This document shows positions 30,763-45,963 of a stretch of DNA of 64,000 bases, piece by piece. The DNA lies in the NCBI RefSeq assembly GCF_003610535.1, contig NZ_RAPN01000002.1, positions 124,001 through 188,000 on the forward strand, read 5' to 3'. The position numbers and the translations under genes are program-made. Numbering within the stretch: position 1 is the stretch's first letter; every line of letters begins with the position of its first letter. Source of the DNA: Mangrovibacterium diazotrophicum. GTDB taxonomy: Bacteria; Bacteroidota; Bacteroidia; Bacteroidales; Prolixibacteraceae. The notes below the pieces were generated by a model. It had not been told where the DNA came from. It saw nothing but the letters and a program-made list of their open reading frames with translations, and ran no database searches.

Positions 30763-31554
30763 CTATTTCAACGCCTCTCCCTCCGGATTACCGGTGCGTA
30801 AATCAAGCGACATCTTCAGTGCAACACCGCTGATTCTTTTCTCAAATGATTGTTCGATTAAATAATTCAAAATGGTAGCTGCGCCTTTCGCGCTCAAACC
30901 ACTTGCATGAATATTCGATATGCAGTTTCGTCTTTCATCTGTCAATCCCAGGCGAGGGTTGTAAGTTGTGTAGATGCCCATACTATCGGGAACCGATAAA
31001 CCAGGGCGCTCACCAACAAGAACAACTGAAAAATGCGCTTGAAGTAATTCACCAATCTCGTCACCAATGGCAACCCGTCCCTGCTCAACAACGGCAACTG
31101 CTATATCGAACCTGGATTTGAGCACAGGAATAATCTGCGTTATAAGCTCAATTGAACTCTTGTTGACCGCATCCGCCGAAAGACCATCCGTTACTACAAA
31201 AACGATATCACAAGTCTGCTTAATCGATTGCAGCAAATCAATATCCGACTCGCGCAGTCTTCTTCCGAGATCCGGGCGAACCAGGTACTCATCCCTGCTC
31301 CTGATTTTGCTCGACAATTTAAATACCGGAACATCCAGCGATGCAATCGCCTCGCAAAGCTGGTCGGTTTGGAGTTCCGAATAGATGGCATCTTTGGCTT
31401 CGGCGCAGGCCAACCGAAAGGCCAGCACTTCGCGCAAAGGCAAACTTCCGCCAACGTGCCCCAAGGCAATCCGAGCCTTACTGTGAACCTTCAATTCGCT
31501 CCATGAATCTTCCAGCACAACCGATCGTTTTCCGTTTAGAGGCAATTTCTCCAT
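30763..31554 (-). CDS. eutC: Ethanolamine ammonia-lyase small subunit
   Basis: A 263-residue protein matching EutC. Key stretches include SKARIALGHVGGSLPLREVL, YLVRPDLGRRL, DIVFVVTDGLSADAVN, VVLVGERPGLSVPDSMGIY and RNCISNIHASGLS. With EutB it forms the adenosylcobalamin-dependent enzyme that turns ethanolamine to acetaldehyde and ammonia in the cytoplasm. Its ATG lies two bases after the EutB stop, so translation is coupled. Usual EutC is about 295 residues. The shortening is mostly at the disordered N-terminus, which in enteric bacteria targets a microcompartment. Confidence 0.95.
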   Translation of the reverse strand: MEKLPLNGKRSVVLEDSWSELKVHSKARIALGHVGGSLPLREVLAFRLACAEAKDAIYSELQTDQLCEAIASLDVPVFKLSSKIRSRDEYLVRPDLGRRLRESDIDLLQSIKQTCDIVFVVTDGLSADAVNKSSIELITQIIPVLKSRFDIAVAVVEQGRVAIGDEIGELLQAHFSVVLVGERPGLSVPDSMGIYTTYNPRLGLTDERRNCISNIHASGLSAKGAATILNYLIEQSFEKRISGVALKMSLDLRTGNPEGEALK

Positions 31555-31556
31555 AA

Positions 31557-32927
31557 CTAAAGATTCTCCAACAATTTATTTGTGCCGTTCATAATTTGCC
31601 TGTTACCTCTGCCGTCAAAAATTCCCATCGTCTGCAACCACTGTTCAAACTCAGGAGATGGCTTTCGATCCAGAACACTGCGCAGATACATGGCATCATG
31701 AAAAGAAGCAGATTGGTAATTCAGCATAATATCGTCCGAACCGGGAACACCAATAATGAAATTGACGCCGGCAACACCAAGCAGAGTCATCAGGTTATCC
31801 ATATCGTCCTGGTCGGCATTGGTATGATTGGTATAACACACGTCAACACCCATTGGCAAGCCCATCAACTTACCGCAAAAATGGTCCTCCAAAGCCGCCC
31901 GAATAATTTGCTTACCATCGTACAAATACTCCGGACCAATAAAACCAACAACCGTATTCACCAGGAAAGGATTGAATTTGCGGGCCACTGCATAGGCACG
32001 GGTTTCGCAGGTTTGCTGATCGACTCCCCAGTGGGCATTCGCGGAAAGAGCCGATCCCTGGCCAGTTTCAAAGTACATGACCTGGTTGCCCACCGTGCCG
32101 CGATTTAAACTGGTTGCCGCATCTTCGGCTTCCTGCAAGATCGATAAATTAACACCAAAGGAAGAGTTGGTCAATTCGGAGCCGCCAATCGACTGAAAAA
32201 CCAAATCGACGGGCGCTTTATGGATGATGTCTAAAGTTGTGGTGACATGACTGAGCACACACGATTGGGTTGGGATTTCGTATTGAAGCCGAATATCATC
32301 GACCATCCTGAGCAGATCTGCCACAATTTGAGGGCTATCTGTTGCCGGGTTAATTCCGATAACGGCATCACCGCAACCGTACATTAAACCATCGACAATG
32401 CTGGCTGCAATTCCGGTTTTGTTATCAACCGGGTTGTTCGGTTGCAAGCGAACAGAAAGCGTTCCTTTTAGGCCGACCGTCGTTCGAAACCGGCTGATCA
32501 CTTCACATTTGTGTGCCACCTTGATGAGGTCCTGGTTTCGCATTATTTTGGAAACCGCGGCTACCATTTCCGGGGTTAACCCGGGACCTAAGCGGGTCAG
32601 GGTAGCTGTTGTCGCATAATCGGATAAAAGCCAATCCCGAAATTCGCCCACGGTAAGATCCGATATCGGCTCAAACGCTTCTTTATCGTGGTCGTCGATG
32701 ATCAACCTTGTGATTTCATCTTTTTCGTAGGGAATCAAATCTTCATTCAGAAAATTTGCCAGGGGCACTTCGCTGAGCGCATACTGTGCGGCAACACGTT
32801 CTTCGTTGGTGCTTGCAGCGATTTTAGCCAAAGCATCCCCGCTGCGAAACAAGGTCGCTTTCGCCATCAGCACTCTCAAATTATCAAACAAATATCTCGT
32901 GTTCTTCAACGAAAAACTGTATTCCAT
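31557..32927 (-). CDS. eutB: Ethanolamine ammonia-lyase large subunit
   Basis: A 456-residue protein with the normal EutB length. Supporting stretches are LSVRLQPNNPVDNKTGIAAS, GLMYGCGDAVIGINPATDSP, QSCVLSHVTTTLDI and PVDLVFQSIGGSELTN, and ALSANAHWGVDQQTCE near the substrate and cobalamin face. It is the catalytic TIM-barrel subunit. No EutA reactivase, EutE aldehyde dehydrogenase or shell protein is present. A terminator-like hairpin lies upstream at 33060-33083, so the eut genes could be their own unit or be read through. Confidence 0.96.
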   Translation of the reverse strand: MEYSFSLKNTRYLFDNLRVLMAKATLFRSGDALAKIAASTNEERVAAQYALSEVPLANFLNEDLIPYEKDEITRLIIDDHDKEAFEPISDLTVGEFRDWLLSDYATTATLTRLGPGLTPEMVAAVSKIMRNQDLIKVAHKCEVISRFRTTVGLKGTLSVRLQPNNPVDNKTGIAASIVDGLMYGCGDAVIGINPATDSPQIVADLLRMVDDIRLQYEIPTQSCVLSHVTTTLDIIHKAPVDLVFQSIGGSELTNSSFGVNLSILQEAEDAATSLNRGTVGNQVMYFETGQGSALSANAHWGVDQQTCETRAYAVARKFNPFLVNTVVGFIGPEYLYDGKQIIRAALEDHFCGKLMGLPMGVDVCYTNHTNADQDDMDNLMTLLGVAGVNFIIGVPGSDDIMLNYQSASFHDAMYLRSVLDRKPSPEFEQWLQTMGIFDGRGNRQIMNGTNKLLENL

Positions 32928-33094: not shown

Positions 33095-34576
33095 TCACTT
33101 AGGGGAGTAGTACAACATGGTATCGGACAAATCACCTTGGCGAATTCTCAGACTCGACAAACCGACTTCCAACTCCTCACCCATATAATCTTCGAAATAG
33201 AGTAGCGTTATTTTATGAAACCCTTTCGAAAGGTTCGCGGCCCCTTTTCGCAAGCGCGCACTGTGTCCGCCATCGTTGTCAACGATTAGCTGATCATCAA
33301 TCGACAAGGTTGCGCCATCATCTGAAAGCAGATAGAACCGGTAAGTTTGTGTTTCCGGCACTTCAATATAACCTTCAAACTTGAAGGCAAAATGATCCTT
33401 TTGCTTCGCTTTTTCCAGTGAAAAATTATTTGTGGTACCAGTTTCAATCAGTGGTAATTTTTCAATTTCGTTCACGGTCTCAACCGGCCCTTCGTAGTAG
33501 CGATATTCCAGTCCCTGTTTCAGCGTTGCCTTGTCCAATTCAATTGCAGGCAGAGGTGCTTCTTCCAAGGCTTGCTGATTACCATCATTAGGATAGACGA
33601 AAAACAGATCTTCTTCGCGCGGCGTTGAAATCCAGCTTTTAAAATGAAAATCATTGGCATGCAGTTCGATCACCCGTGCCCCGTTTCTCAAGTCTCCGTA
33701 CGCGTAAGTTCCGGTGCAACGGCCATAAGCCAAAGCCACATCCTGGTAAACGCCAACGTAATCGTTGTTGTGATCGTGGCCACAAAAAGTGCCGATCACA
33801 TCCTGCTGTTCAACAAAAGCAGCGAACAAACCAGAGTTAAGCTCAGGAGATGCGACACCTTCTCCTTTGTGGCCAAGCAATTCGGAGCTTTTCGCAACCT
33901 CCCGATATTCCATCAGCGGAATATGCAGGAACGCGTACGATGGCACCGGCAGATCGCTGTGCAACTTCCTATATTCATCCGACTGCTTGCGATACCATTC
34001 AATTTGATCCGTTTTGACCCAATTGTAACTACCCGGCATGTACGAACTGCAATAGGCGTGAGAGTCGAAAAAATAAAGAACCGAGCCAATGCTCTGGTCT
34101 TTCGTGTAAACAGGAAGCGAGAAATTGCCTTCTCCCGAAAGTCCGGGCACTTCCTTGTTGATGTTATAAGGCAAGCTCTCAACAATCTCGTTGATTTCGC
34201 TGCGAGGTGTGTCTCCCTCCGAATCGTGGTTTCCGTAAGTTGAAATCCACGCTAATTTTCGGTCAACCATGGGTTGAATCACTTCCTTCCACCCGCGAAC
34301 CGGATCACCCGCCGTTACAATGTCACCGGTCAGAACCACCAAATCCGGTTTTTCTTTATCCAAAATCACCGACATGGTTTGCAAGGTAAGCCCATTGGCT
34401 GGCATGCCCGGCTCCCAGTGGATATCTGTAAACTGAACGATTTTATAGGTGCCGTCTTCCCGGAAATTCAATTTTACTTCTGCCTTTTTCGTTTTCGCCT
34501 GAACCCCAGTAAAAGGCGCCAGGAAAACAATCAGAAAACTAAAAAGGAAGGTTTGTATCGTTTTCTGTTTATTCAT
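33095..34576 (-). CDS. Secreted calcineurin-like metallophosphoesterase with C-terminal PA14 domain
   Basis: A 493-residue exported protein. The signal peptide is MNKQKTIQTFLFSFLIVFLA and onward. Metal-ligand motifs are VQFTDIHW, VVLTGDIV, YGNHDSEG and FCGHDHNND, as in calcineurin-like phosphoesterases. Residues about 360-490 are PA14-like (YRFYLLSDDGATLSIDDQL, NDGGHSARL). The domain is the second PA14-phosphatase of the window, after 13392-15053. The ATG at 34576 overlaps the end of the alkaline phosphatase gene by 8 bases. A longer in-frame ORF lacks the signal peptide and is not used. It probably removes phosphate from a glycan-linked or phosphoethanolamine-like substrate. Confidence 0.86.
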   Translation of the reverse strand: MNKQKTIQTFLFSFLIVFLAPFTGVQAKTKKAEVKLNFREDGTYKIVQFTDIHWEPGMPANGLTLQTMSVILDKEKPDLVVLTGDIVTAGDPVRGWKEVIQPMVDRKLAWISTYGNHDSEGDTPRSEINEIVESLPYNINKEVPGLSGEGNFSLPVYTKDQSIGSVLYFFDSHAYCSSYMPGSYNWVKTDQIEWYRKQSDEYRKLHSDLPVPSYAFLHIPLMEYREVAKSSELLGHKGEGVASPELNSGLFAAFVEQQDVIGTFCGHDHNNDYVGVYQDVALAYGRCTGTYAYGDLRNGARVIELHANDFHFKSWISTPREEDLFFVYPNDGNQQALEEAPLPAIELDKATLKQGLEYRYYEGPVETVNEIEKLPLIETGTTNNFSLEKAKQKDHFAFKFEGYIEVPETQTYRFYLLSDDGATLSIDDQLIVDNDGGHSARLRKGAANLSKGFHKITLLYFEDYMGEELEVGLSSLRIRQGDLSDTMLYYSPK

Positions 34577-36095
34577 CTTTATATCGTTTATAGCTATTTC
34601 GTGACTCCAAGACCATTGCGGCATCCTCGGCCGAGATCGAAACGCCCATGTATTTCTGCAGGTTTTCCTGAAGCGATTCAACCGTCTTCGATTCAGTCAG
34701 AATACCGGAAAGCGATTTGGTTTGACGAGTCAACTCAGTCTGATAGTCTTTAAATGAAAGTGGATTGGTGATATTTGTCCAGGTACCTCCAGCCGGAAGT
34801 TCCACCCGATCTTCCTGTTCCTTCGGCATCTTTTTGTAAGCAATTTCTAATCCTCCGGTTTCGTGATCTGCTGTGAAAACCAGCAGTGTCTTTTCCGGAT
34901 TTCTGGCATAGAAAGCATAAGCCGTTTCCAACACACGATTCATATCCTCAACAGCCTGGTAAACAGCTCCCAAATCATTGTCATGGGCTTCCCAATCGAT
35001 GCGGGCACATTCGATCATCACCATGTAAGAATGATCATCCATCGAAATCATCTCCAAAGCCTGTTGCGCCATATCCTCAACCATCGGAACTTTAGCATTA
35101 TTTGGCCCGCGGTCGATTACCGGCGGCAAACCACCGCCACCAAACAGGCCAATGAGTTTCCCATCTTTCGGAGCATTTTGCATTTGTTCCTTCGTAAAGC
35201 ACAGGTTATACTGATCGGCAGCAAATGCCGCAAATAAGTTCAGTGAATCATTTCGGGCTGAAGTGTACGTAACACCATCGGTATCGAACAGCTGGCTAAC
35301 CTCCTGCCCTGCCGGAATGAACTGCGAGCCTCCGCCACCAAGAACCACATCCGCCACTTTTCCCTCAAACAGTTGTCGGGCAATGTCACTTTCCAAATCC
35401 CGATTCAGGCTATGCGCGTAGAATGCTGCAGGTGTGGCATCGGTAATGCCGGCATCAGAAACAACCGCTGTTTTAAAGTGATTCTTTTTGGCCAAAGCCA
35501 TGGCACTTTCCATCGGCTCTCCATCCCGGTTCATCCCAACCATGTTCATGCGTGTCTTTTCACCGCATGCCAAAGCCGTGCCGGAAGCTGCCGAGCCCGT
35601 CACAATCCCCTCGGATGTACAGGTATAGTTGAAACCGCAAGCACCTTCCCGCATGATTCGTTCAAACATTGTTGGTTCCTGATTACCGGTAGCCCGGCGC
35701 ATATAAATTGGCAGTGCCATATGCATGTTTCCCATGCCGTCACCGATCACATAAATCACGTTCACACCGTCAGCAACGGCTTCTTTCACAACCCGACCAA
35801 TTGAGTCGTTGTGTACAATGCCGTTCAATTTATTCAGGTATTTCGACGGGCCTACCGCGCCAACCGGAACCGGTGCTGCTGTATGAAAGTTCGTACTCCA
35901 CAACACCTGACTCTGCTGACTTTGAAGTCGGTTCAAAAGGATCTGCGACGTTGCACTATGTGACCAATAGGTCGACTCGAGCTCAACTATACGCTTGTTG
36001 AACCTAGCTTCTTCATCACTGCCCGGGTTCGAACAGGCCAATACTCCTCCCAGGCATAGTATTGACAAACTATACCGAACTATATCTTTTCTCAT
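34569..36095 (-). CDS. Alkaline phosphatase lipoprotein, apparently circularly permuted
   Basis: A 508-residue lipoprotein (lipobox VLAC). Residues 113-415 carry the standard PhoA order: D119 (VIGDGMG), nucleophile S168 (TGSAASGTALACG), D219-T221 (DATPAAF), then E362, D367 and H371 in IECARIDWEAHDND and D410-H411 in FTADHETGG. Spacing of E362/D367/H371 equals that of E. coli E322/D327/H331. The usual C-terminal block carrying the last metal His (HTxxxxVPVxAxGP) is not after residue 411. Instead, WSTNFHTAAPVPVGAVGP with H71 occurs at residues 66-83, before the catalytic Asp. The protein ends in the helical insert that would normally precede that block. It follows the GDPD-like gene by 20 bases. 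Confidence 0.85.
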   Translation of the reverse strand: MRKDIVRYSLSILCLGGVLACSNPGSDEEARFNKRIVELESTYWSHSATSQILLNRLQSQQSQVLWSTNFHTAAPVPVGAVGPSKYLNKLNGIVHNDSIGRVVKEAVADGVNVIYVIGDGMGNMHMALPIYMRRATGNQEPTMFERIMREGACGFNYTCTSEGIVTGSAASGTALACGEKTRMNMVGMNRDGEPMESAMALAKKNHFKTAVVSDAGITDATPAAFYAHSLNRDLESDIARQLFEGKVADVVLGGGGSQFIPAGQEVSQLFDTDGVTYTSARNDSLNLFAAFAADQYNLCFTKEQMQNAPKDGKLIGLFGGGGLPPVIDRGPNNAKVPMVEDMAQQALEMISMDDHSYMVMIECARIDWEAHDNDLGAVYQAVEDMNRVLETAYAFYARNPEKTLLVFTADHETGGLEIAYKKMPKEQEDRVELPAGGTWTNITNPLSFKDYQTELTRQTKSLSGILTESKTVESLQENLQKYMGVSISAEDAAMVLESRNSYKRYKDE

Positions 36096-36115: not shown

Positions 36116-36907
36116 TTACTTGCGGGATTCGAATTTTCCAAGCTCTGCCGGATCATCACACCCGATTAGATCAACACCGGCGTCTTTTAGCGTTTGCCAA
36201 ACACGATTACGAATCTCTGCCGGTTTATTCGGGTATCCCCAAAAACGAATTATTTTATGCTCCCGATGGCAATGGTCAACAAAGCTTTTCAGTTTTGTCA
36301 GCTCTGCTGCGGATATTTCTGCAGTTCCATCCCATTGAAAAAAGTTTGTCCAATCATCGCTCAACAATGGAATCAAACTCTGCTTGGCGGCAAATGACTC
36401 TTCATCCAGACGACCATCAATAAAACAATATCGCTGTTTCTCCGCGGCAACCGCTTCAATCGGCCGATCTCCCGACAGGATAATGGTTACAGCTTTCTGA
36501 TTTATCTGCTTCCCCTTGATTTCGGTGAGCATTGACTGATACTGCGGCAATACTTTTTGTAGTTCCCTGTAAGTTTCAAGCCCGTGATCTTTTATGTCAA
36601 TCATCAAAACGATCGGGCTGAAATCTGCTCCTTTTTCTTCAATTATCTTTTTCAGGGGATCCAAATACAGTGAACTCAGCGTACGCTCCGGCTTCAGCTC
36701 ATCCAAACTGTGTCCGACCAGCAATACGCCGTCACGCAGAAAAACATCTGCCTCAACACCGACCATTCCCGCGTCCAACGCGTCCAGCAAGGGGCGTTTA
36801 TTCCAGTAATCGTTATGCGCATGACCTCCTTTGAAAACCAGATCCTGGGCGAATGCCTGAACCGAAACCAAAAGAAATAAGCAAACGATGATTCTATTTT
36901 TTATCAT
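36116..36907 (-). CDS. GDPD/PI-PLC-like phosphodiesterase
   Basis: A 263-residue exported protein (MIKNRIIVCLFLLVSVQAFAQ). The GDPD/PI-PLC signature is visible: FKGGHAHNDYWN supplies the first His, VGVEADVFL the paired Glu-Asp metal ligands, and LLVGHSLDEL the second His. IVLMIDIKDH and IRFWGYPNKP continue the TIM-barrel. Such enzymes split glycerophosphodiesters, for example glycerophosphoethanolamine to glycerol-3-phosphate and the free head group. It follows susD (37007) after a hairpin and precedes alkaline phosphatase, consistent with a release-then-dephosphorylate order. Substrate is inferred. Confidence 0.83.
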   Translation of the reverse strand: MIKNRIIVCLFLLVSVQAFAQDLVFKGGHAHNDYWNKRPLLDALDAGMVGVEADVFLRDGVLLVGHSLDELKPERTLSSLYLDPLKKIIEEKGADFSPIVLMIDIKDHGLETYRELQKVLPQYQSMLTEIKGKQINQKAVTIILSGDRPIEAVAAEKQRYCFIDGRLDEESFAAKQSLIPLLSDDWTNFFQWDGTAEISAAELTKLKSFVDHCHREHKIIRFWGYPNKPAEIRNRVWQTLKDAGVDLIGCDDPAELGKFESRK

Positions 36908-37006: not shown

Positions 37007-38644
37007 TTAATAACCGGCATTTTGAGTCAACGCTCCGTTAGATTTCGTAATCTGATTTGATGGATAAGGGAATACCATCATGTAATCCTGGTAAGTTGCC
37101 TTATTTTGGTAATCTCCATAGTCGGCAATGACGAAAGCAGATTCCGGATCTGAACGATCTTCGTACTGACGAACTCGTGGGTGTGCATTTAATTCAGCAT
37201 TTGCTAATGCTTTGATAGTCGCATCGGAAGAACGGTTCCAACGTTTCAGGTCGAAAAGGTGGTCTGTAAATTCAAATGCCAATTCGCAACGACGCTCGTG
37301 GTAAAGATCGGCCATTGTGGGCGTGTGATCCAGTGATGCAATATTCGAGCGGTTACGAATTCTGTCCAAATCCGTTTTTGCACTTGCGGCATCACCCGTC
37401 ATCAAATAAGCTTCAGCACGGAACAGCAACATGTCGGCAAAACGAATCAAAGGAAAATTGATACGGGCAGTTGGCCAGTCACCGTTGGTATTCACATAAC
37501 CTGCTTCATCAGCATCGGCATATTTAAACGGATCCATGTATTTATTAATCATGAACCCTGCTTCAACATCCGATGTAGAGTAGAAGTTGCGGGTTTCTCC
37601 CCAGAACTCAAATTCCTGGTTATATTCCAAGATCGAGCGAACCAAACGATCGTTACCTTCACCATCTTTCAACATTTCTTCATAAATGTCATACGATGGT
37701 TTGTTTTGTCCCCAACCGTTGTAATATCCCCAACCTTTGTTTTCGAGAATAACACCCGGGAATTCGCTACCACCACCGTTAGAACCACCGGTTGACGGAA
37801 TTGACCAGATGTATTCTTCATTCCAAAAATTATCGAAATCAGATGAGAATACTTCGTCTAAGCTCGAGGCCAGGTCGCGTCCATATGTCGTTTCAAGCGA
37901 GTTAACCATGCTGATTACATTGGTCCACTGAGACTCGTCCCAAGTAGCCCAGTAGGCGTAAACCTTTGCTTTGTAAGCAACAGCAGCAGCCTGATGAGCA
38001 CGCCCCTGATCAGCAGCCTCATAATCCTCGAAGGCAGGAAGATAGGCAATTGCGTTGTCCATATCTTCAATGATATACTCGTAGTTGTCGACTACCGATG
38101 CTTGTTGTGGAGGAATCGAGTTATCGTATCCATCTGCAAAATCCTCGTAACGAACAAAAGGTACACCTTGATCGGTAGTTCCGTAACGGTAGGCAATAAT
38201 GAAATGAGCCATTCCCCGCATGAAATATGCTTCGCCCAAACTGCGTGTTTCAATATCGGTCAATCCCGATGCTGTTTGCTTGTCCAAAAGCTGCTCGATT
38301 ACCCAGTTGGCTTTAGCCATTAACTCGTAAAACAAATTGAAATTGTTGCTCAACGGACTTTCGTCACCAGTGTAATTCAGTGTCGCCAGCGTATTGTAAC
38401 TACGGGTACGTCCCCACACGATATCACAGGCTCCGCCTTGCTCCCAAAACAGGTCACGGCCGTAAGAGGTTTCTTTATGCAATGGTTGATACAAGGCTGT
38501 AACCGCGTCAATGGCTTGCTGATCGTTCTGGAAATAATTCGATATTGTCGCATTCCCTTCGGGCTGCACATCCAGAAACTCGCTGCACGAACTGAGCACA
38601 GAAGCCAGTAAACCAACAGCGACTATATATTTATACATTTTCAT
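37007..38644 (-). CDS. RagB/SusD family surface lipoprotein
   Basis: A 545-residue SusD homologue. The lipobox is LASVLSSC. SEFLDVQPEG, FMRGMAHFIIAYRYGTTDQG, RFADMLLFRAEAYLMTG and RRCELAFEFTDHLFDLKRW are typical of the family. The ATG at 38644 is used rather than the upstream TTG at 38653. It pairs with the SusC gene 28 bases upstream. Together with the downstream GDPD-like enzyme and phosphatases it forms a Sus-type uptake system controlled by the HTCS regulator. Confidence 0.94.
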   Translation of the reverse strand: MKMYKYIVAVGLLASVLSSCSEFLDVQPEGNATISNYFQNDQQAIDAVTALYQPLHKETSYGRDLFWEQGGACDIVWGRTRSYNTLATLNYTGDESPLSNNFNLFYELMAKANWVIEQLLDKQTASGLTDIETRSLGEAYFMRGMAHFIIAYRYGTTDQGVPFVRYEDFADGYDNSIPPQQASVVDNYEYIIEDMDNAIAYLPAFEDYEAADQGRAHQAAAVAYKAKVYAYWATWDESQWTNVISMVNSLETTYGRDLASSLDEVFSSDFDNFWNEEYIWSIPSTGGSNGGGSEFPGVILENKGWGYYNGWGQNKPSYDIYEEMLKDGEGNDRLVRSILEYNQEFEFWGETRNFYSTSDVEAGFMINKYMDPFKYADADEAGYVNTNGDWPTARINFPLIRFADMLLFRAEAYLMTGDAASAKTDLDRIRNRSNIASLDHTPTMADLYHERRCELAFEFTDHLFDLKRWNRSSDATIKALANAELNAHPRVRQYEDRSDPESAFVIADYGDYQNKATYQDYMMVFPYPSNQITKSNGALTQNAGY

Positions 38645-38681
38645 GATTTTCAATTTTAATTCTGATTGTTGTCTTCGTTGA

Positions 38682-41600
38682 TTAATATGTAAGTTTCAAA
38701 CCGAAGGAAAGTACACGTGATACAGGATAAGTCATTGTATCATAACCGCCATTTTCCGGATCCATTCCCGAGTATTTTGTAAAGGTAGCCAGGTTTTCAC
38801 CACTGAAATAAACGGACATTTTACTACTTCGTTGACTCAAATGAGGCACTTTCGTAATCAAGCTGGTCAGGTCGTAAGAAACAGTTACGTTTTTGATACG
38901 CAAGTAAGACGCATCCTCCAGGTACCAATCAGAAGGAGTTGAGAAGTTTCCGTTTGGATCGGATTTCGAAAGACGTGGAATATCAGAAGAAGTGTTGGTT
39001 GGACTCCAGGCATTCAGAATTTCAGTTGAACGGTTGAAGTTTCCTTCCACATCACTTAAGATCATACCTTTCGCTACATATAAAGATTGAGCTCCTGAAA
39101 CACCTTGTAACATTGCGCTTACAGATAGGTTTTTGTAAGTGGCGCCCAAAGTCAGTGCATAAGTCAAGTCGGGAGTAGCGTTGCCCATATACTGGCGGTC
39201 ATTCGTCGTATTGATTTCACCATCGCCATCGTAGTCTACAAATTTCAAGTCACCGGCAACAGCATCCGGCTGAATACGCTCTCCATCTGCATTTACATAA
39301 GCAGCAGCCTCTTCATCCGATTGGAAAATCCCGTCGGTTTTAACCAGGTAGTAAGAATTCAAAGGTTCTCCTTGTCCTGTTCGATACATGTATGGCAGGA
39401 ATCTCCAGGAGCCATCTCCGGTCCAAACTGCAGCAGTGCCATCCGAGTTCTTGATACCAGTATCCGACACCCAGTTTTTCAGAGTAGCGAAGTTACCGGA
39501 TACGAAGTAGCTGAAATCGTCATTAATCTTATCGCTCCAGTTGAACTGTAACTCAACTCCACGGTTACGAACCTCACCTTGGTTTACATACGGAGCATCT
39601 AGACCTATCGTAGACGGGAATTCAAAAGTTTGTGTTTGGATGAGGTTAAATGTACGTTTGTCAAAATAGTCTAACGACAAAGAAAGACGATTTCTGAACA
39701 TGTCTACATCCACACCTAAATCCGTTTGTTCCGATGTTTCCCAAGTCAGCTCCGGGTTAAGCGCCTTATAGTTGTATACACCTGTTCCCCAGATCTCACC
39801 GGCTGTAACACCATATTGACCTGATTCACTCCAGGTATTCTCCTGCGTTCCAAGAACAGGCGAGCTGTAGTTGTGAGTAATTGATCCAAGGTTTCCAACA
39901 CGCCCCCATGAACCACGGAATTTAAGCAGTGAAATTAAATCGCTTTTCTTGAAGAATTTTTCATTTGAGATTTTCCAACCAACAGTTGCTGCCGGAAAAT
40001 CACCGTAGTTATAGTCTTGGTCCAAACGTCCAGCATAGTCACGACGCCATGAAGCTGTTACAAAATAGCGATCGTTGTACGAATATGCCAAACGGGAAAT
40101 AAGTGATACGTTCGCATCAGGGCCGCTGCCATCAGCGTCTTCTAAGTAATCAGACGCACTAATAGAGTTAGCGTAAGCCAGATATTGAAGTATTTCCGAT
40201 TCGTCTGCAAACCCAGTACCCGTCACAGTCATTCCACGTGGTTCGTAATGATCAGCTGTTGTTGAGATCAAAGCACTCAGGTTGTGCTCACCAAAAACAC
40301 CATCATAAGTCAAAGTGTTCTCTGTTTTCAAGGCATCAGTACGATAAGTCGATTCTGTCAAACTGTTTGAGGTATCAGGTTTACCAACTTCATCACGTAT
40401 TGGCGTAAAATTTTTGTAATACTGTGTTTCTAAGTTATAGGAGAACCGGCTCGCAAACTTCAATCCCTGAACAACATCTTTGATTTCAAGGCTGGTAGTT
40501 GTCCAGGCGTTGCTGATCTTATTGTAGTTGTTGTCAGCTTTCAATGTACGAACCGGGTTTACCACGTCGCCGTGAATATCCGAATAGTTAGAACCATATT
40601 GGGCAATGTAATCCGGATCTTCAGTTGTTGTTCCACCATAAGAACCATCCAGCGGATTGTAAACTGTTGCACTGCGAGGCATATAAAGAGCCGACAAAAT
40701 TACACCCGAGTATGCACTCTCGGTATCTGTTCCGCGACTTTGTTTGTTTGCCCACACAAAATCCTCTGTAATGGTTACCCACTTATTCAGTTTGAAACTA
40801 CTATTATAGCGGGTTGTCAGATTTTTATTGAAGGTATTGATCAAAGTACCGTTGTCATCACTGTAGGCAAAAGACAAGCGATGTTTAAAGCTATCCGTTC
40901 CCACATTCAAGGCAACGTTATGACGTTGGTAAGTCGCCGTACGGAAGATGGCATCCATCCAGTCGGTACGGGTTGTTGCAATCCATGGGTTAACATCTGT
41001 ATCCCAACCAGTAGGAAGAGACAAGCCCGCATTCGCATAAGATTGTGTACGCATTGCGATTTCTTGTTCCGCATTCAACCCCTGAGGCAGGTTTGTTGCA
41101 GTGCGTGCACCGAATACTGCATCGTATGTAACTGTAGGTTCACCTTTTTCGGCTTTCTTGGTTGTCACCAAGATTACACCACCGGCTCCGGAGTGTGCAC
41201 CATAGATTGCAGCCGACGCGGCATCCTTTAAAACAACAATTGAAGCAATATCATCCATTGAAGCCAAAGGAGCTCCCGGAATTCCATCGACTACCCACAA
41301 TACGTTATCACCCCCCTGTGATCCTTGTCCACGAATAACAATAGAAGGAGTTGATGTTGGGTCACCACTGGTTGCACTAACCGTAACACCGGCAAGCTGT
41401 CCCTGAAGCATACTTTCAGTAGAAGCTACCGGGCGTTTAACCAACTGCTCCGTATTATCAATCACACCAACTGATGCAGACAAGTCTTGTTTACGAGAAC
41501 TTGTTCCGTAACCCAAAACAACTACGTCATTAATAACCTGGTTGTCTTCTTTCAGAATGATCTGCAGGTATGGTTTGTCAGCAACAACCTCTAGCGGCTG

Positions 41601-41822
41601 ATAACCGATAAACGAAACTGTCAAAATTGATCCCTCCGGCACAGAAAGAGAAAACTTTCCATCCAGATCCGTCACCGTACCGATAGTGGTACCTTTAATA
41701 GCGACACTTGCTCCAATTAGTGGCTGGTTGCCTTCGTCAAGAACCACCCCCGATAGATTGGTTTGAGCAAACATCCACAAGGGGAATAAATGCAGCAAAA
41801 CAAAAAAACATAGATTTTTCAT
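38682..41822 (-). CDS. SusC/RagA family TonB-dependent outer-membrane transporter
   Basis: A 1046-residue SusC. Residues about 22-100 are the carboxypeptidase-like domain (LSGVVLDEGNQPLIGASVAI). The plug contains DVVVLGYGTSSRKQDLSASV and IASIVVLKDAASAAIYGAHS. The barrel ends with VLSFGLKLTY. It is the outer-membrane channel for the substrate of the GDPD/phosphatase/EutBC unit. The gene is first in its operon and lies 220 bases from the HTCS stop. An inverted repeat of AACCGAAA/TTTCGGTT is found in its 5' region. Confidence 0.95.
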   Translation of the reverse strand: MKNLCFFVLLHLFPLWMFAQTNLSGVVLDEGNQPLIGASVAIKGTTIGTVTDLDGKFSLSVPEGSILTVSFIGYQPLEVVADKPYLQIILKEDNQVINDVVVLGYGTSSRKQDLSASVGVIDNTEQLVKRPVASTESMLQGQLAGVTVSATSGDPTSTPSIVIRGQGSQGGDNVLWVVDGIPGAPLASMDDIASIVVLKDAASAAIYGAHSGAGGVILVTTKKAEKGEPTVTYDAVFGARTATNLPQGLNAEQEIAMRTQSYANAGLSLPTGWDTDVNPWIATTRTDWMDAIFRTATYQRHNVALNVGTDSFKHRLSFAYSDDNGTLINTFNKNLTTRYNSSFKLNKWVTITEDFVWANKQSRGTDTESAYSGVILSALYMPRSATVYNPLDGSYGGTTTEDPDYIAQYGSNYSDIHGDVVNPVRTLKADNNYNKISNAWTTTSLEIKDVVQGLKFASRFSYNLETQYYKNFTPIRDEVGKPDTSNSLTESTYRTDALKTENTLTYDGVFGEHNLSALISTTADHYEPRGMTVTGTGFADESEILQYLAYANSISASDYLEDADGSGPDANVSLISRLAYSYNDRYFVTASWRRDYAGRLDQDYNYGDFPAATVGWKISNEKFFKKSDLISLLKFRGSWGRVGNLGSITHNYSSPVLGTQENTWSESGQYGVTAGEIWGTGVYNYKALNPELTWETSEQTDLGVDVDMFRNRLSLSLDYFDKRTFNLIQTQTFEFPSTIGLDAPYVNQGEVRNRGVELQFNWSDKINDDFSYFVSGNFATLKNWVSDTGIKNSDGTAAVWTGDGSWRFLPYMYRTGQGEPLNSYYLVKTDGIFQSDEEAAAYVNADGERIQPDAVAGDLKFVDYDGDGEINTTNDRQYMGNATPDLTYALTLGATYKNLSVSAMLQGVSGAQSLYVAKGMILSDVEGNFNRSTEILNAWSPTNTSSDIPRLSKSDPNGNFSTPSDWYLEDASYLRIKNVTVSYDLTSLITKVPHLSQRSSKMSVYFSGENLATFTKYSGMDPENGGYDTMTYPVSRVLSFGLKLTY

Positions 41823-42042: not shown

Positions 42043-45000
42043 TTAACGAGATATTTGCTCCCCTCGCCGTATTTTCGCTTGAAATTTTGACGGCGTTAGC
42101 CCGGTTTCCTTCTGAAAACAGCGACTAAAATATTTCGGATCTGAAAATCCAACCAGATGACTGACCTCGTTAATCTGAATTCCATCATCAGACAGCAGTT
42201 GGCGCGCACGCTTTATTCGGGTTGAACGAATAAACTCGGTTGGCGTTAGTTGCATCAACTCCTTTAACTTTCGGTAGAGTTGCATGGAACTTACCCCACA
42301 GGCGTCAGCCAGCTGTTGCGGATCCAGGTCGTCGTTCATCATCTCGGTTTCCATCACATCCATCAGCTTTCGGATCATTTTTTCGTCGTGACTTTCCAGT
42401 TGAGGTTGGTTTGGTTCAACAATCGGCTCGATCACTGCCTGACGATTTTTATAGTCGGCCTGCTCCAACAGTCGGTTTATTTTCAACAGAAGCAATTCCG
42501 GGTCGAATGGTTTTGCAATAAACTCGTTCACACCTGTCAGGTATCCCTCCTTCACATTTCGGAGTTCGCTCATCGCCGTGAGCATGACAATGGGTAAATG
42601 CCGGAATCTGCTCTTGCGTCGAATCTCTCGAACCATTTCAATACCATCCATTTCGGGCATGATCCAGTCGGTCACCACTGCTTTTACATGCGGATGCTTT
42701 TTCAGATATTCCAAACCTTCGCGGCCATTATTGCAAACCTGCAGCCGGTAGTTTTGACCGATAATCTCTTTCAAATATGCTTGCAGCGTCGGATTGTCCT
42801 CAACAAGCAATACTTCCACCTGATCGGTTTCGTCCGTTTGTTCAAAATCTTTTTCACCTTCAGTTACGCCCAACAAATCTGGTAACGAAAACTCAGGATG
42901 GACTTCCCGTTCTAATGGAAACTCCAGTTTAAATTTACTTCCCTTTCCTTCTTCACTCTCGACCTGAATGGTGCCGCCAAGCAAATTCACGTAGTCTTTC
43001 ACGAGCGAGAGGCCGATCCCATTTCCTTTTTTACCATTTGTTTCCGACTTACCAATCTGGTAATAACGTTCAAAAATAAACGGGATGCGGTCGGCAGGAA
43101 TACCAATACCGGTGTCTTCAACGGTTAATATGAAATTATGCTGTTCCACACTCGCGCGGCAATTAATCTGTCCGCCCGTTTGAGTAAATTTTAGCGAGTT
43201 AGCCAGGATATTGTAAATAACCTGCTTCAACTTTCCGTAGTCGAATCGGTAATCGAAATCCTCTCCGCTGCCTGCAAAATCCAAATTGACCCCGGTTTCT
43301 GAAGCTCGACCTTGAAAAGACTCGACCACACTTCGGCAATGATCCAGCAGTCTGCCATTGGTCAAAACGAGTTTTTGGCCGGCCGATTCCAGCTTATTGC
43401 GATCAAGCACCTGGTCGATCAGCTGCATAATATATTCCGCATTGTTATAAATCGATTGGACTTTGTTCCGCGAAAAATGAGTCGTTTTGGGATCATTCAT
43501 CATTTCAACAGCCGGCCCGTAAATGAGCGAAAGCGGTGTACGGATATCGTGCGAAATGTTGGTGAAGAAAATTTCTTTCTGTCGGTTCGACTCCTCCTGG
43601 CGATCATACATTTCCAACAGATGGTCACGCTGCGCCAAGATATGATCTTTTTGCAACTGTACTTTTCGGTTTTGTTCTTCCAACGCCAAGTTGGCATCTT
43701 CCAATGCAGATTTCTGCTTTTCAATTTTTTCGGTTCGTTGATTGACCAACTCTTCCAAACGAAGGTTATCACGACGGATTTTGGTATATCGCCGCTGAAA
43801 CAGGAATACCCCTAGCAAAATCACCAGGATTAAAGCTCCCAGCCAATAATAGGGCTCTTGCCAAAACGGCTTCTCAATGGAAAAACGATAAAGCATGCGC
43901 GCGTCTGACCAGACCCCATCCGAATTAGCCGCTTTTACCCATAAATTATAATCCCCGGGTGGTAGTTGCGCATAATTCAAATTGCTTTTGGAGCCGTAAG
44001 TTTGTTGAAAATCATCGTCAACCGGATCCAGCCGCCATGCCAGTTGATGGCGGAAAGGGCTGTTGGGGAGAATCGTTTGAAGGTCGATCTGCAGATCGTT
44101 TTGCCAAAAAGAATATACCGGGGCATTTTCATTGGCGGCAACGTTCGACAACGTTTGGTTTTCGCCGTTTACAATTAAACCGCTCATGTTCACCAGAGGT
44201 ACATTGGGGTTGACCGGGATGGAATCGGGGAAAAAAGATGTGATGCCCGAAACCCCTCCAAAATACATCCGACCATCGGAAGCCATCAATCCGGCACCTT
44301 CCGAGAATTCCGGATTGTTAACACCATCGGTTCGATCGTAAGACCGTAAACTCTGATCTCTCACATCAACCTGAACAATACCTTTCAAGCTACTGCACCA
44401 CAAACGACCGTCATCCTCAAAAATCCGGTAGATAACTGTTGATGGCAGTTCCTTATTCAAGGTTTCATAGCTGGTTACCTGCCCATCGGGTTCAATGCGA
44501 TTCAAGCCTCCGAAAGTACCGATCCACATGCCTCCGTCAGCAGATTCACAAAGCTCGAAAATACTGTTACTGGCCAAACTATGTTTTTCGGATGGGTGGA
44601 AGCGAAAATTTTTCTCGATCTGAAAAGTACTTGTATTCATCACAAAAACGCCATCCGACTCGGTACCGATCCACAAACGGTTTTGCCGATCGAGCAAAAG
44701 CTTGCGAATGTTCTTTCCCTCCAAATCGGTACCAACATCCAACCGTTGAATAGTGCCTACTTTAGGATCGAAATAGTCCAATGCACCCCATTCGCCGACG
44801 AAGAATTTGCCGGAACGATCTTCTGCAATTCCGTAAATTCGCGATGCCGATAAAATTCCTTTGCCATTTACCTTCGACGGAAAATAGTCGACAGCCGAAT
44901 TCTTAGGATTCAGACGTACTAAACCGGCATAAGTGCCTACCCAAACCTGATCGGAGGAATCGATATGCAAACTCCGAATCCAGTTCCAGCGGGCGAATTC

Positions 45001-45963
45001 AGAGTTTGGAAAATTAACCGTTTTCAACGCACCATCCTTCAAGCGACGTAAACCGGAATTATAAGTTCCCAACCAGAGTTCACCGCGGTCGTCGCGCACA
45101 ATTGCCCGAACTGCCGCATTCTTCAGTTCCAACTTTTCAGAACCAATATTTGTGAAATTCTGAGAGAACCGGTAACCGCGGCTCAAACCATGATCTTTCG
45201 TCCCCACCCATAGGCATCCACTGCGATCCACCAACAAGCTATACACTTCGTTCCCTGCTAATGCATTACTCTCCGTGTCAGATGCAACGTAGTGCGCAAG
45301 AATGGAAAGATCTTTGGGGTTGAGTTTGAAAATGCCACTGTTGATGGTCGAGATCCACAATTCGTTGCCAGGTTCCCAAACGGCATGCACCTCAATTTCA
45401 GGAGCGACAGCGTGAAAATGTTGTTGAATCTCCTCCAGACGCTCTCTCCCGGGAAACTCAGGATATACAGATTCAGTCTGAAACCGGTCACGCTCAGCTT
45501 CGTAACGCCAGGCTTTTATGCTATCTGCTATTAGCAGAGTTCCCTCCTTGTTAACTTCCATCCGGATTGGCGGCCCTTTCATAAACTCCAATTCGGGATA
45601 AAGCTGACAGTCTCCCTTCAGGTTTAACAGGCGCGCCAATGTTCCTCCTTCAAAGAGCACCCAAATATCACCGCGTCCATCTACCTCCAGCTGCTCGGGT
45701 TTCAAATTGGCAGGGCATTCCTCTTTCAAAAAGTTGAGATCGGACAAACTGTGATAATAATGACCGTCAAAATAACTCAGCCCGTTGTAGGTCGCAAACC
45801 AAATTCTCCCGCAGGAATCTTCGGCAGCATCCAACACCGTATTGCTTGCTAATCCATCCTCTACAGTGAAATTTTCAAAATAGATCGCTTCAGAACCGAA
45901 CACCTTGTCCAATACTGAAACGCCATAGAGCAAAAGAAATAATACGAGGTACTTTGAGCGCAT
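42043..45963 (-). CDS. Hybrid two-component system (HTCS) sensor-regulator
   Basis: A 1306-residue single-chain two-component protein. The signal peptide is about 1-23. Two propeller lobes of reg_prop repeats (about 25-620, e.g. DSCGRIWFATYNGLSYFDG and DRSGCLWVGTKDHGL) precede a Y_Y_Y domain (about 640-700). One membrane helix (704-722) and a coiled coil (730-795) follow. HisKA has H805 in NISHDIRTPLS. HATPase is about 905-1016 with VEDTGIGIP and GNGIGLSL. The receiver (1049-1168) has D1099 in VTDWIMP. The AraC HTH occupies about 1215-1300. It should sense a periplasmic ligand and activate susCD next to it. Confidence 0.95.
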   Translation of the reverse strand: MRSKYLVLFLLLYGVSVLDKVFGSEAIYFENFTVEDGLASNTVLDAAEDSCGRIWFATYNGLSYFDGHYYHSLSDLNFLKEECPANLKPEQLEVDGRGDIWVLFEGGTLARLLNLKGDCQLYPELEFMKGPPIRMEVNKEGTLLIADSIKAWRYEAERDRFQTESVYPEFPGRERLEEIQQHFHAVAPEIEVHAVWEPGNELWISTINSGIFKLNPKDLSILAHYVASDTESNALAGNEVYSLLVDRSGCLWVGTKDHGLSRGYRFSQNFTNIGSEKLELKNAAVRAIVRDDRGELWLGTYNSGLRRLKDGALKTVNFPNSEFARWNWIRSLHIDSSDQVWVGTYAGLVRLNPKNSAVDYFPSKVNGKGILSASRIYGIAEDRSGKFFVGEWGALDYFDPKVGTIQRLDVGTDLEGKNIRKLLLDRQNRLWIGTESDGVFVMNTSTFQIEKNFRFHPSEKHSLASNSIFELCESADGGMWIGTFGGLNRIEPDGQVTSYETLNKELPSTVIYRIFEDDGRLWCSSLKGIVQVDVRDQSLRSYDRTDGVNNPEFSEGAGLMASDGRMYFGGVSGITSFFPDSIPVNPNVPLVNMSGLIVNGENQTLSNVAANENAPVYSFWQNDLQIDLQTILPNSPFRHQLAWRLDPVDDDFQQTYGSKSNLNYAQLPPGDYNLWVKAANSDGVWSDARMLYRFSIEKPFWQEPYYWLGALILVILLGVFLFQRRYTKIRRDNLRLEELVNQRTEKIEKQKSALEDANLALEEQNRKVQLQKDHILAQRDHLLEMYDRQEESNRQKEIFFTNISHDIRTPLSLIYGPAVEMMNDPKTTHFSRNKVQSIYNNAEYIMQLIDQVLDRNKLESAGQKLVLTNGRLLDHCRSVVESFQGRASETGVNLDFAGSGEDFDYRFDYGKLKQVIYNILANSLKFTQTGGQINCRASVEQHNFILTVEDTGIGIPADRIPFIFERYYQIGKSETNGKKGNGIGLSLVKDYVNLLGGTIQVESEEGKGSKFKLEFPLEREVHPEFSLPDLLGVTEGEKDFEQTDETDQVEVLLVEDNPTLQAYLKEIIGQNYRLQVCNNGREGLEYLKKHPHVKAVVTDWIMPEMDGIEMVREIRRKSRFRHLPIVMLTAMSELRNVKEGYLTGVNEFIAKPFDPELLLLKINRLLEQADYKNRQAVIEPIVEPNQPQLESHDEKMIRKLMDVMETEMMNDDLDPQQLADACGVSSMQLYRKLKELMQLTPTEFIRSTRIKRARQLLSDDGIQINEVSHLVGFSDPKYFSRCFQKETGLTPSKFQAKIRRGEQISR

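Follow-up and report, generated by a model that had tools for sequence, protein, structure and literature searches.

A probable natural circular permutation of alkaline phosphatase in Mangrovibacterium diazotrophicum and other Bacteroidota

Alkaline phosphatase is familiar from textbooks and serves as a standard reporter. In the window (the whole stretch of 64,000 nucleotides of Mangrovibacterium diazotrophicum that was analysed), one gene of this family has the segment that ends the chain of its relatives ahead of the catalytic core. Is this gene a natural circular permutant, or does its order come from domain shuffling, from decay of the enzyme or from a faulty assembly? The parts of the gene are as follows, with the reference being Vibrio alkaline phosphatase (VAP).

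34569..36095, minus strand: probable circularly permuted alkaline phosphatase gene, 508 aa (ORF, Pfam, phmmer)
35775..35939, minus strand: residues 53-107, the C-terminal segment of unpermuted relatives now N-terminal, holding H71 (phmmer to VAP 447-501; rotated alignment)
35847..35885, minus strand: HTAAPVPVGAVGP, residues 71-83 (motif reading)
34596..35765, minus strand: residues 111-500, matching VAP 4-413: the core with the VAP-type insert region, followed by the new C-terminus (phmmer; Pfam 112-419)

The reading frame runs from an ATG through 508 aa with zero internal stops. PF00245 (Alk_phosphatase) matches its product at E 2.9e-58 with 198.2 bits against a curated cut-off of 24.4, in two stretches of which the better one, 112-419, is listed. 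The protein scores below the cut-off of the NCBIfam PhoA equivalog PRK10518 (84.4 bits vs 540). The spacing of E362, D367 and H371 equals that of E. coli E322, D327 and H331, as an earlier note on this sequence had said. That note had also placed a motif HTxxxxVPVxAxGP at residues 70-83; its position before the core was right, but its length was not, as the motif is HTAAPVPVGAVGP, 13 letters at 71-83, and the pattern was one letter too long. H71 is what we take to be the equivalent of E. coli H412. The signal peptide ends in ...VLAC-S and, read by eye, is of lipoprotein type; Cys-ending signal peptides of this type were seen by eye in four members, the window protein and its homologues L004, L005 and L006. 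The window enzyme probably carries a lipid anchor. The gene very probably encodes an exported member of the PhoA superfamily, a circularly permuted alkaline phosphatase that depends on metal.

Data from searches against solved structures gave a consistent picture of segment order. The window protein matched 55 distinct sequences with phmmer, and the best were VAP (7qow, 6t26, 3e2d, 6qsq) and the alkaline phosphatase of Halomonas sp. 593 (3wbh), at E 3e-53 to 4.5e-57. All five of these displayed alignments consist of two segments in swapped order. In them, query 103/109/111-482/500 aligns to the N-terminal and middle part of the target, and query 53-107 to its C-terminal end, which is VAP 447-501 of 502 in 3e2d. 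Taken by itself, the moved segment scores weakly in this single-sequence search (i-Evalue 0.007-0.03), and for most of the 55 matches only one stretch is listed. The old C-terminus ends at residue 107 and the old N-terminal strand starts at 111, with three residues joining them, and the break that gave the new ends falls between VAP residues ~414 and 447. Both parts are homologous to one reference, with their order swapped and each part present once. Together with the Pfam match and the intact reading frame, these alignments bear out the earlier observation of the C-terminal block ahead of the core. The same note had the protein ending in a helical insert; there is such an insert, but by alignment it is that of the Vibrio-type enzymes and not of E. 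coli PhoA.

The search for homologues with the same order, proposed in the earlier note, returned nine further genes, which makes ten in total from two classes of Bacteroidota. Three of the nine belong to Labilibaculum sp. NORP351 (L004, 55%), Plebeiobacterium sediminum (L005, 53%) and L. manganireducens (L006, 51%), in the families Marinifilaceae and Marinilabiliaceae. The other six come from genomes G364 (L036), G443 (L039), G781 (L040), G1270 (L097), G1300 (L098) and G1298 (L099), and all but the first of these six are, by their kinship labels, from one family of the window's phylum but of the other class.

Rotation of the chain offers a direct measure of the permutation. After removal of the signal peptide, each of the ten permuted proteins gained 42-74 points in global alignment to VAP when rotated, with the optimal rotation point 5-10 residues before GDGMG in every case, whereas five unpermuted controls gained 1, 4, 5, 12 and 24 points. 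The distance from HT to GDGMG is invariant at 47 residues in 10/10, so that the block equivalent to H412, C-terminal to the core as a trait of PF00245, stands before the core throughout. Moreover, local alignment of the N-terminal blocks to the VAP C-terminal tail scored 62-96 across the ten proteins, and every block beat all 1000 of its own shuffles (maxima 45-65); the closest case was L097, with 76 against a shuffle maximum of 65. Scores to the E. coli PhoA tail were 30-55, in a comparison made on the unshuffled blocks. A profile of seven N-terminal blocks matched the C-terminal ends of unpermuted proteins, with 69 domains reported, nine of them shuffled sequences, and its best real matches (E 1e-7 to 2e-7) were L010, L080, L063, L064 and L083. 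Judged from these scores, the profile by itself does not single out the VAP type, and some non-VAP C-termini match equally well.

The earlier note had also stated that the block has no C-terminal copy. This held: no HT block follows DHETG in the seven permuted rows scanned by pattern, nor in the other three (L097-L099), which were read as whole reading frames. The scan covered loci L001-L096, which gave 84 parsed proteins, 71 of them distinct, with the remaining loci giving no parsed protein. Both anchors were found by the first pattern in 61 of the 71, with the block before GDGM in 7 and after DHETG in 51; L062 had no block, and L066 and L068 had a false pattern match only. The 10 distinct proteins outside the first pattern had a normal HT block at the end when printed.

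Trees point to one origin. In a core-only tree of 71 rows the seven permuted genes form one clade (100/99), which joins two VAP-type rows (98/93). A second tree of 72 rows, with the block added, PhoA included and rows L062, L066 and L068 left out, places all ten permuted genes in one clade (100/100), and there the VAP rows, again two VAP-type rows only, are not joined to it with support. Since the ten genes form one clade, one permutation event suffices, and a single origin is strongly supported by these sequences as the simplest reading. The relationship of the clade to VAP would rest on the shared insert region and tail. Combined with the gain on rotation in 10/10 and the invariant 47-residue spacing, the single clade of ten upholds circular permutation as the interpretation first offered for this gene.

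Conservation of the active site suggests that the rearranged chain still works. The rotated alignment keeps the equivalents of D51, S102, D153, T155, R166, E322, D327, H331, D369, H370 and H412 in all ten permuted proteins, including H in every row of the H412 column, and the pattern HT[AGS][AS]PVP is found in each of them. The K328 equivalent is W in nine and F in one. The equivalent of E. coli D101 is replaced by G, C, E or S in 10/10, and with this loss the activity of the permuted enzymes could differ. From these residues, the window protein is likely a working enzyme.

Comparison with known enzymes places the permuted proteins nearest to VAP and the Halomonas enzyme. Like these, they have the insert region that follows DHETG, a W in place of K328, and the HT block together with the residues immediately preceding it; they differ from them in the rotated segment order, in the missing D101 equivalent and in D153, where the permuted proteins have D and VAP has H. 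E. coli PhoA lines up at the metal and nucleophile positions, but it is without the VAP-type insert, has K at 328 and D at 101, and carries its HT block C-terminally. Normal-order alkaline phosphatases of Bacteroidota, L051 among them, have the same catalytic motifs with the HT block after DHETG, and their alignments to the VAP-type L063 end by residue 376. When 296 genomes of the phylum were searched with L063, 77 matches were obtained at E<=1e-25, and only those of the permuted G443 and G000 extended past residue 376; no unpermuted relative bearing the insert was found in these 296. L063-L065 are themselves Vibrio-type alkaline phosphatase genes at contig edges in a viral collection, perhaps host DNA beside a provirus. 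Three inserts of VAP, I (153-183), II (325-353) and III (365-395), and a role for its large interface loop are described in PMC7780099.

Predicted structures agree with the assignment of the fold. AlphaFold with four full-length sequences gave a poor model (pLDDT 56.9, pTM 0.59). With 13 rows, some of them unchanged fragments (core or tail) of VAP-type genes, the model improved to pLDDT 79.8 and pTM 0.82; as MAFFT aligned the VAP tail fragments onto the N-terminal block, this model gives no independent evidence for the permutation. Its five best solved fold matches are VAP and the Halomonas enzyme (TMq 0.68-0.69, 429-436 columns), with 3e2d at E 3.1e-21, TMq 0.69 and 430 columns. Foldseek is sequential, and hence the moved block is not expected in the fold match. 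Against viral models, Foldseek gave 0/303 matches at E<=0.001. The moved block is modelled with a strand (model 55-60, protein 76-81) and a helix (model 75-88, protein 96-109), and the ten residues ending at H71 (model 41-50) have low confidence, with a mean pLDDT of 51.

According to our model, the ancestor would have resembled Vibrio alkaline phosphatase. Its old C-terminus, with the last strand and helix and the third zinc-site histidine, would have been joined through about three residues to the old N-terminus at the first core strand, and new ends would have opened in the helical region from VAP ~414 to 447. Tandem duplication with loss of outer parts is the standard route to circular permutation. 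Here, the gene may have been duplicated in tandem, after which copy 1 lost its first part and copy 2 its last. The block would then fold back to its usual place, where H71 would complete the zinc site with D367, H371 and D410/H411, and S168 would attack the phosphate. No tandem VAP-type intermediate was seen. Long alkaline-phosphatase-like reading frames were considered as examples of the duplication step, and of these L105 (1061 aa, two nucleophile-type motifs) and L106 (1381 aa) both have two tandem alkaline-phosphatase-like modules but are not close relatives; L107, a cut stretch of a reading frame, has one HT block. The motifs of L106 recur at a distance of exactly 577 residues, perhaps as an artefact of assembly.

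The same final order could also be reached by domain shuffling, in which the HT block of another alkaline phosphatase was fused ahead of a core whose own block had been lost. Such a history fits the lack of any duplicated intermediate among the genes seen, the position of VAP, which is not the same in the tree built on the core and in the one that includes the block, and the profile that scores L010, L080 and L083 as high as VAP. However, the N-terminal block is homologous to VAP already from residue 53, ahead of HT; the C-terminus can be aligned as far as VAP 413, shortly before the stretch that the block matches; and both parts use nearly the whole VAP length once. Moreover, to lose one block and gain another at one and the same seam would take two events, and we regard domain shuffling as very unlikely. 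That the protein is instead a degenerate or regulatory form, whose moved block has ceased to complete the zinc site, seems unlikely as well: the other metal ligands and the equivalents of S102 and R166 are kept in 10/10 over two classes, as is HT[AGS][AS]PVP, although the D101 equivalent is lost in all ten and the local model confidence at H71 is low.

Nothing was found in favour of a frameshift or assembly error, the danger named in the earlier note. The occurrence of the same order in ten genes from ten genomes (three of them named assemblies), the invariant 47-residue spacing and the single clade exclude such an error in this one genome, and we give it a negligible chance. The spread of the ten genes over two classes means that the rearrangement is inherited and not a sequencing error. 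Natural circular permutation is, with high confidence, the best explanation that these sequences suggest.

The permuted form is rare. Counting matches over nearly the full permuted query, in samples that overlap and of which several include the window's own genome, we found it in 1/61 close relatives (the own genome), 1/140 genomes of the window's family, 2/393 of its order (among 4 passing the cut-off), 1/295 of its class (among 20 passing a looser cut-off) and 3/395 of the phylum sample. Elsewhere the counts were 1/197 in the class of G443, 5/79 in its family (in 4/35 genera) and 1/5 in the family of G364. No record of two plasmid collections (0/249 and 0/260) or of a phage collection (0/10) covers 80% of the query in one place. 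This patchy occurrence means many losses or horizontal transfer.

A circularly permuted E. coli alkaline phosphatase has been engineered, with high specific activity according to the title of Kojima, Ayabe and Ueda 2005 (cited in PMC2395249 and PMC3281007). That permutant is a laboratory construct, whereas the protein of the window would be natural and inherited. Among the papers listed by searches of the open-access literature we recognised no report of a natural alkaline phosphatase permutant, and an earlier report is possible. A natural permutant would allow the effect of chain order on folding, metal loading and dimer formation to be studied directly in the alkaline phosphatase fold.

The neighbouring genes may help to understand what the enzyme does. 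Those of the window are as follows.

42043..45963, minus strand: hybrid two-component regulator (Reg_prop, HATPase_c, receiver, AraC-type HTH; Pfam)
38682..41822, minus strand: SusC-like TonB-dependent receptor (Pfam)
37007..38653, minus strand: SusD-like protein (Pfam)
36116..36907, minus strand: GDPD/PI-PLC-like upstream neighbour, 263 aa (by eye; no Pfam match)
33095..34576, minus strand: calcineurin-like metallophosphoesterase with PA14, downstream neighbour (Pfam; ATG by eye)
31557..32927, minus strand: EutB, ethanolamine ammonia-lyase large subunit (Pfam)
30763..31554, minus strand: EutC, ethanolamine ammonia-lyase small subunit (Pfam)

All are on the minus strand in this order, with the permuted gene between the GDPD/PI-PLC-like gene and the metallophosphoesterase gene. 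The upstream neighbour had no Pfam match and, against solved structures, one chance-level match (E 0.47). Relatives of this GDPD-like gene, at 39-50% identity, stand directly before the permuted gene in all five loci on the window's side (the window, L004, L005, L006 and L036/L102), and SusC and SusD lie ahead of it in the same five, as identified by Pfam for the window and L102 and by eye for L004-L006. The permuted genes of G443 and G781 have genes for a GH92 enzyme and a PA14-bearing metallophosphoesterase as neighbours, that of L097 has GH92 and a metallophosphoesterase, and that of L098 a metallophosphoesterase. By Pfam, 7/10 loci have a metallophosphoesterase gene next to the permuted one; none was noticed by eye in the flanking DNA covered for L006, L036 and L099. 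EutBC occurs in the window, and none was noticed in the flanking DNA covered for the other permuted genes.

From the SusCD, phosphodiesterase-like, metallophosphoesterase and EutBC genes we infer phosphoester scavenging, and the loci support a stepwise phosphodiester-to-phosphate pathway outside the cytoplasm. The permuted enzyme would probably strip phosphate off small phosphomonoesters that the phosphodiesterase-like enzyme and the metallophosphoesterase encoded beside it release. Ethanolamine phosphate might be one source, a weaker suggestion drawn from EutBC next door in the window. We further propose, tentatively and with more doubt than belief, that one ancient permutation founded a distinct lineage of alkaline phosphatases in Bacteroidota and was kept because it changed function. 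The export signal, with the likely lipid anchor in four members, would have moved from the first strand of the core to the insert region, which would give the enzyme another orientation towards its partners in SusCD or mannosidase loci.

Fusions of related parts occur in normal-order enzymes. The ~610 aa reading frame of L051 (G783) joins such an alkaline phosphatase to an N-terminal domain homologous to the window's upstream neighbour (30.5% over 239 residues, E 2.5e-30). In L035 (G043), a reading frame of ~610 aa likewise has a GDPD-like N-terminal domain, by eye and without a match to the window's neighbour, ahead of a normal-order alkaline phosphatase. Within the window, the end of the permuted gene overlaps the likely ATG of the metallophosphoesterase gene (by eye, 34576) by 8 bases, 34569-34576, which suggests coupled translation of the two.
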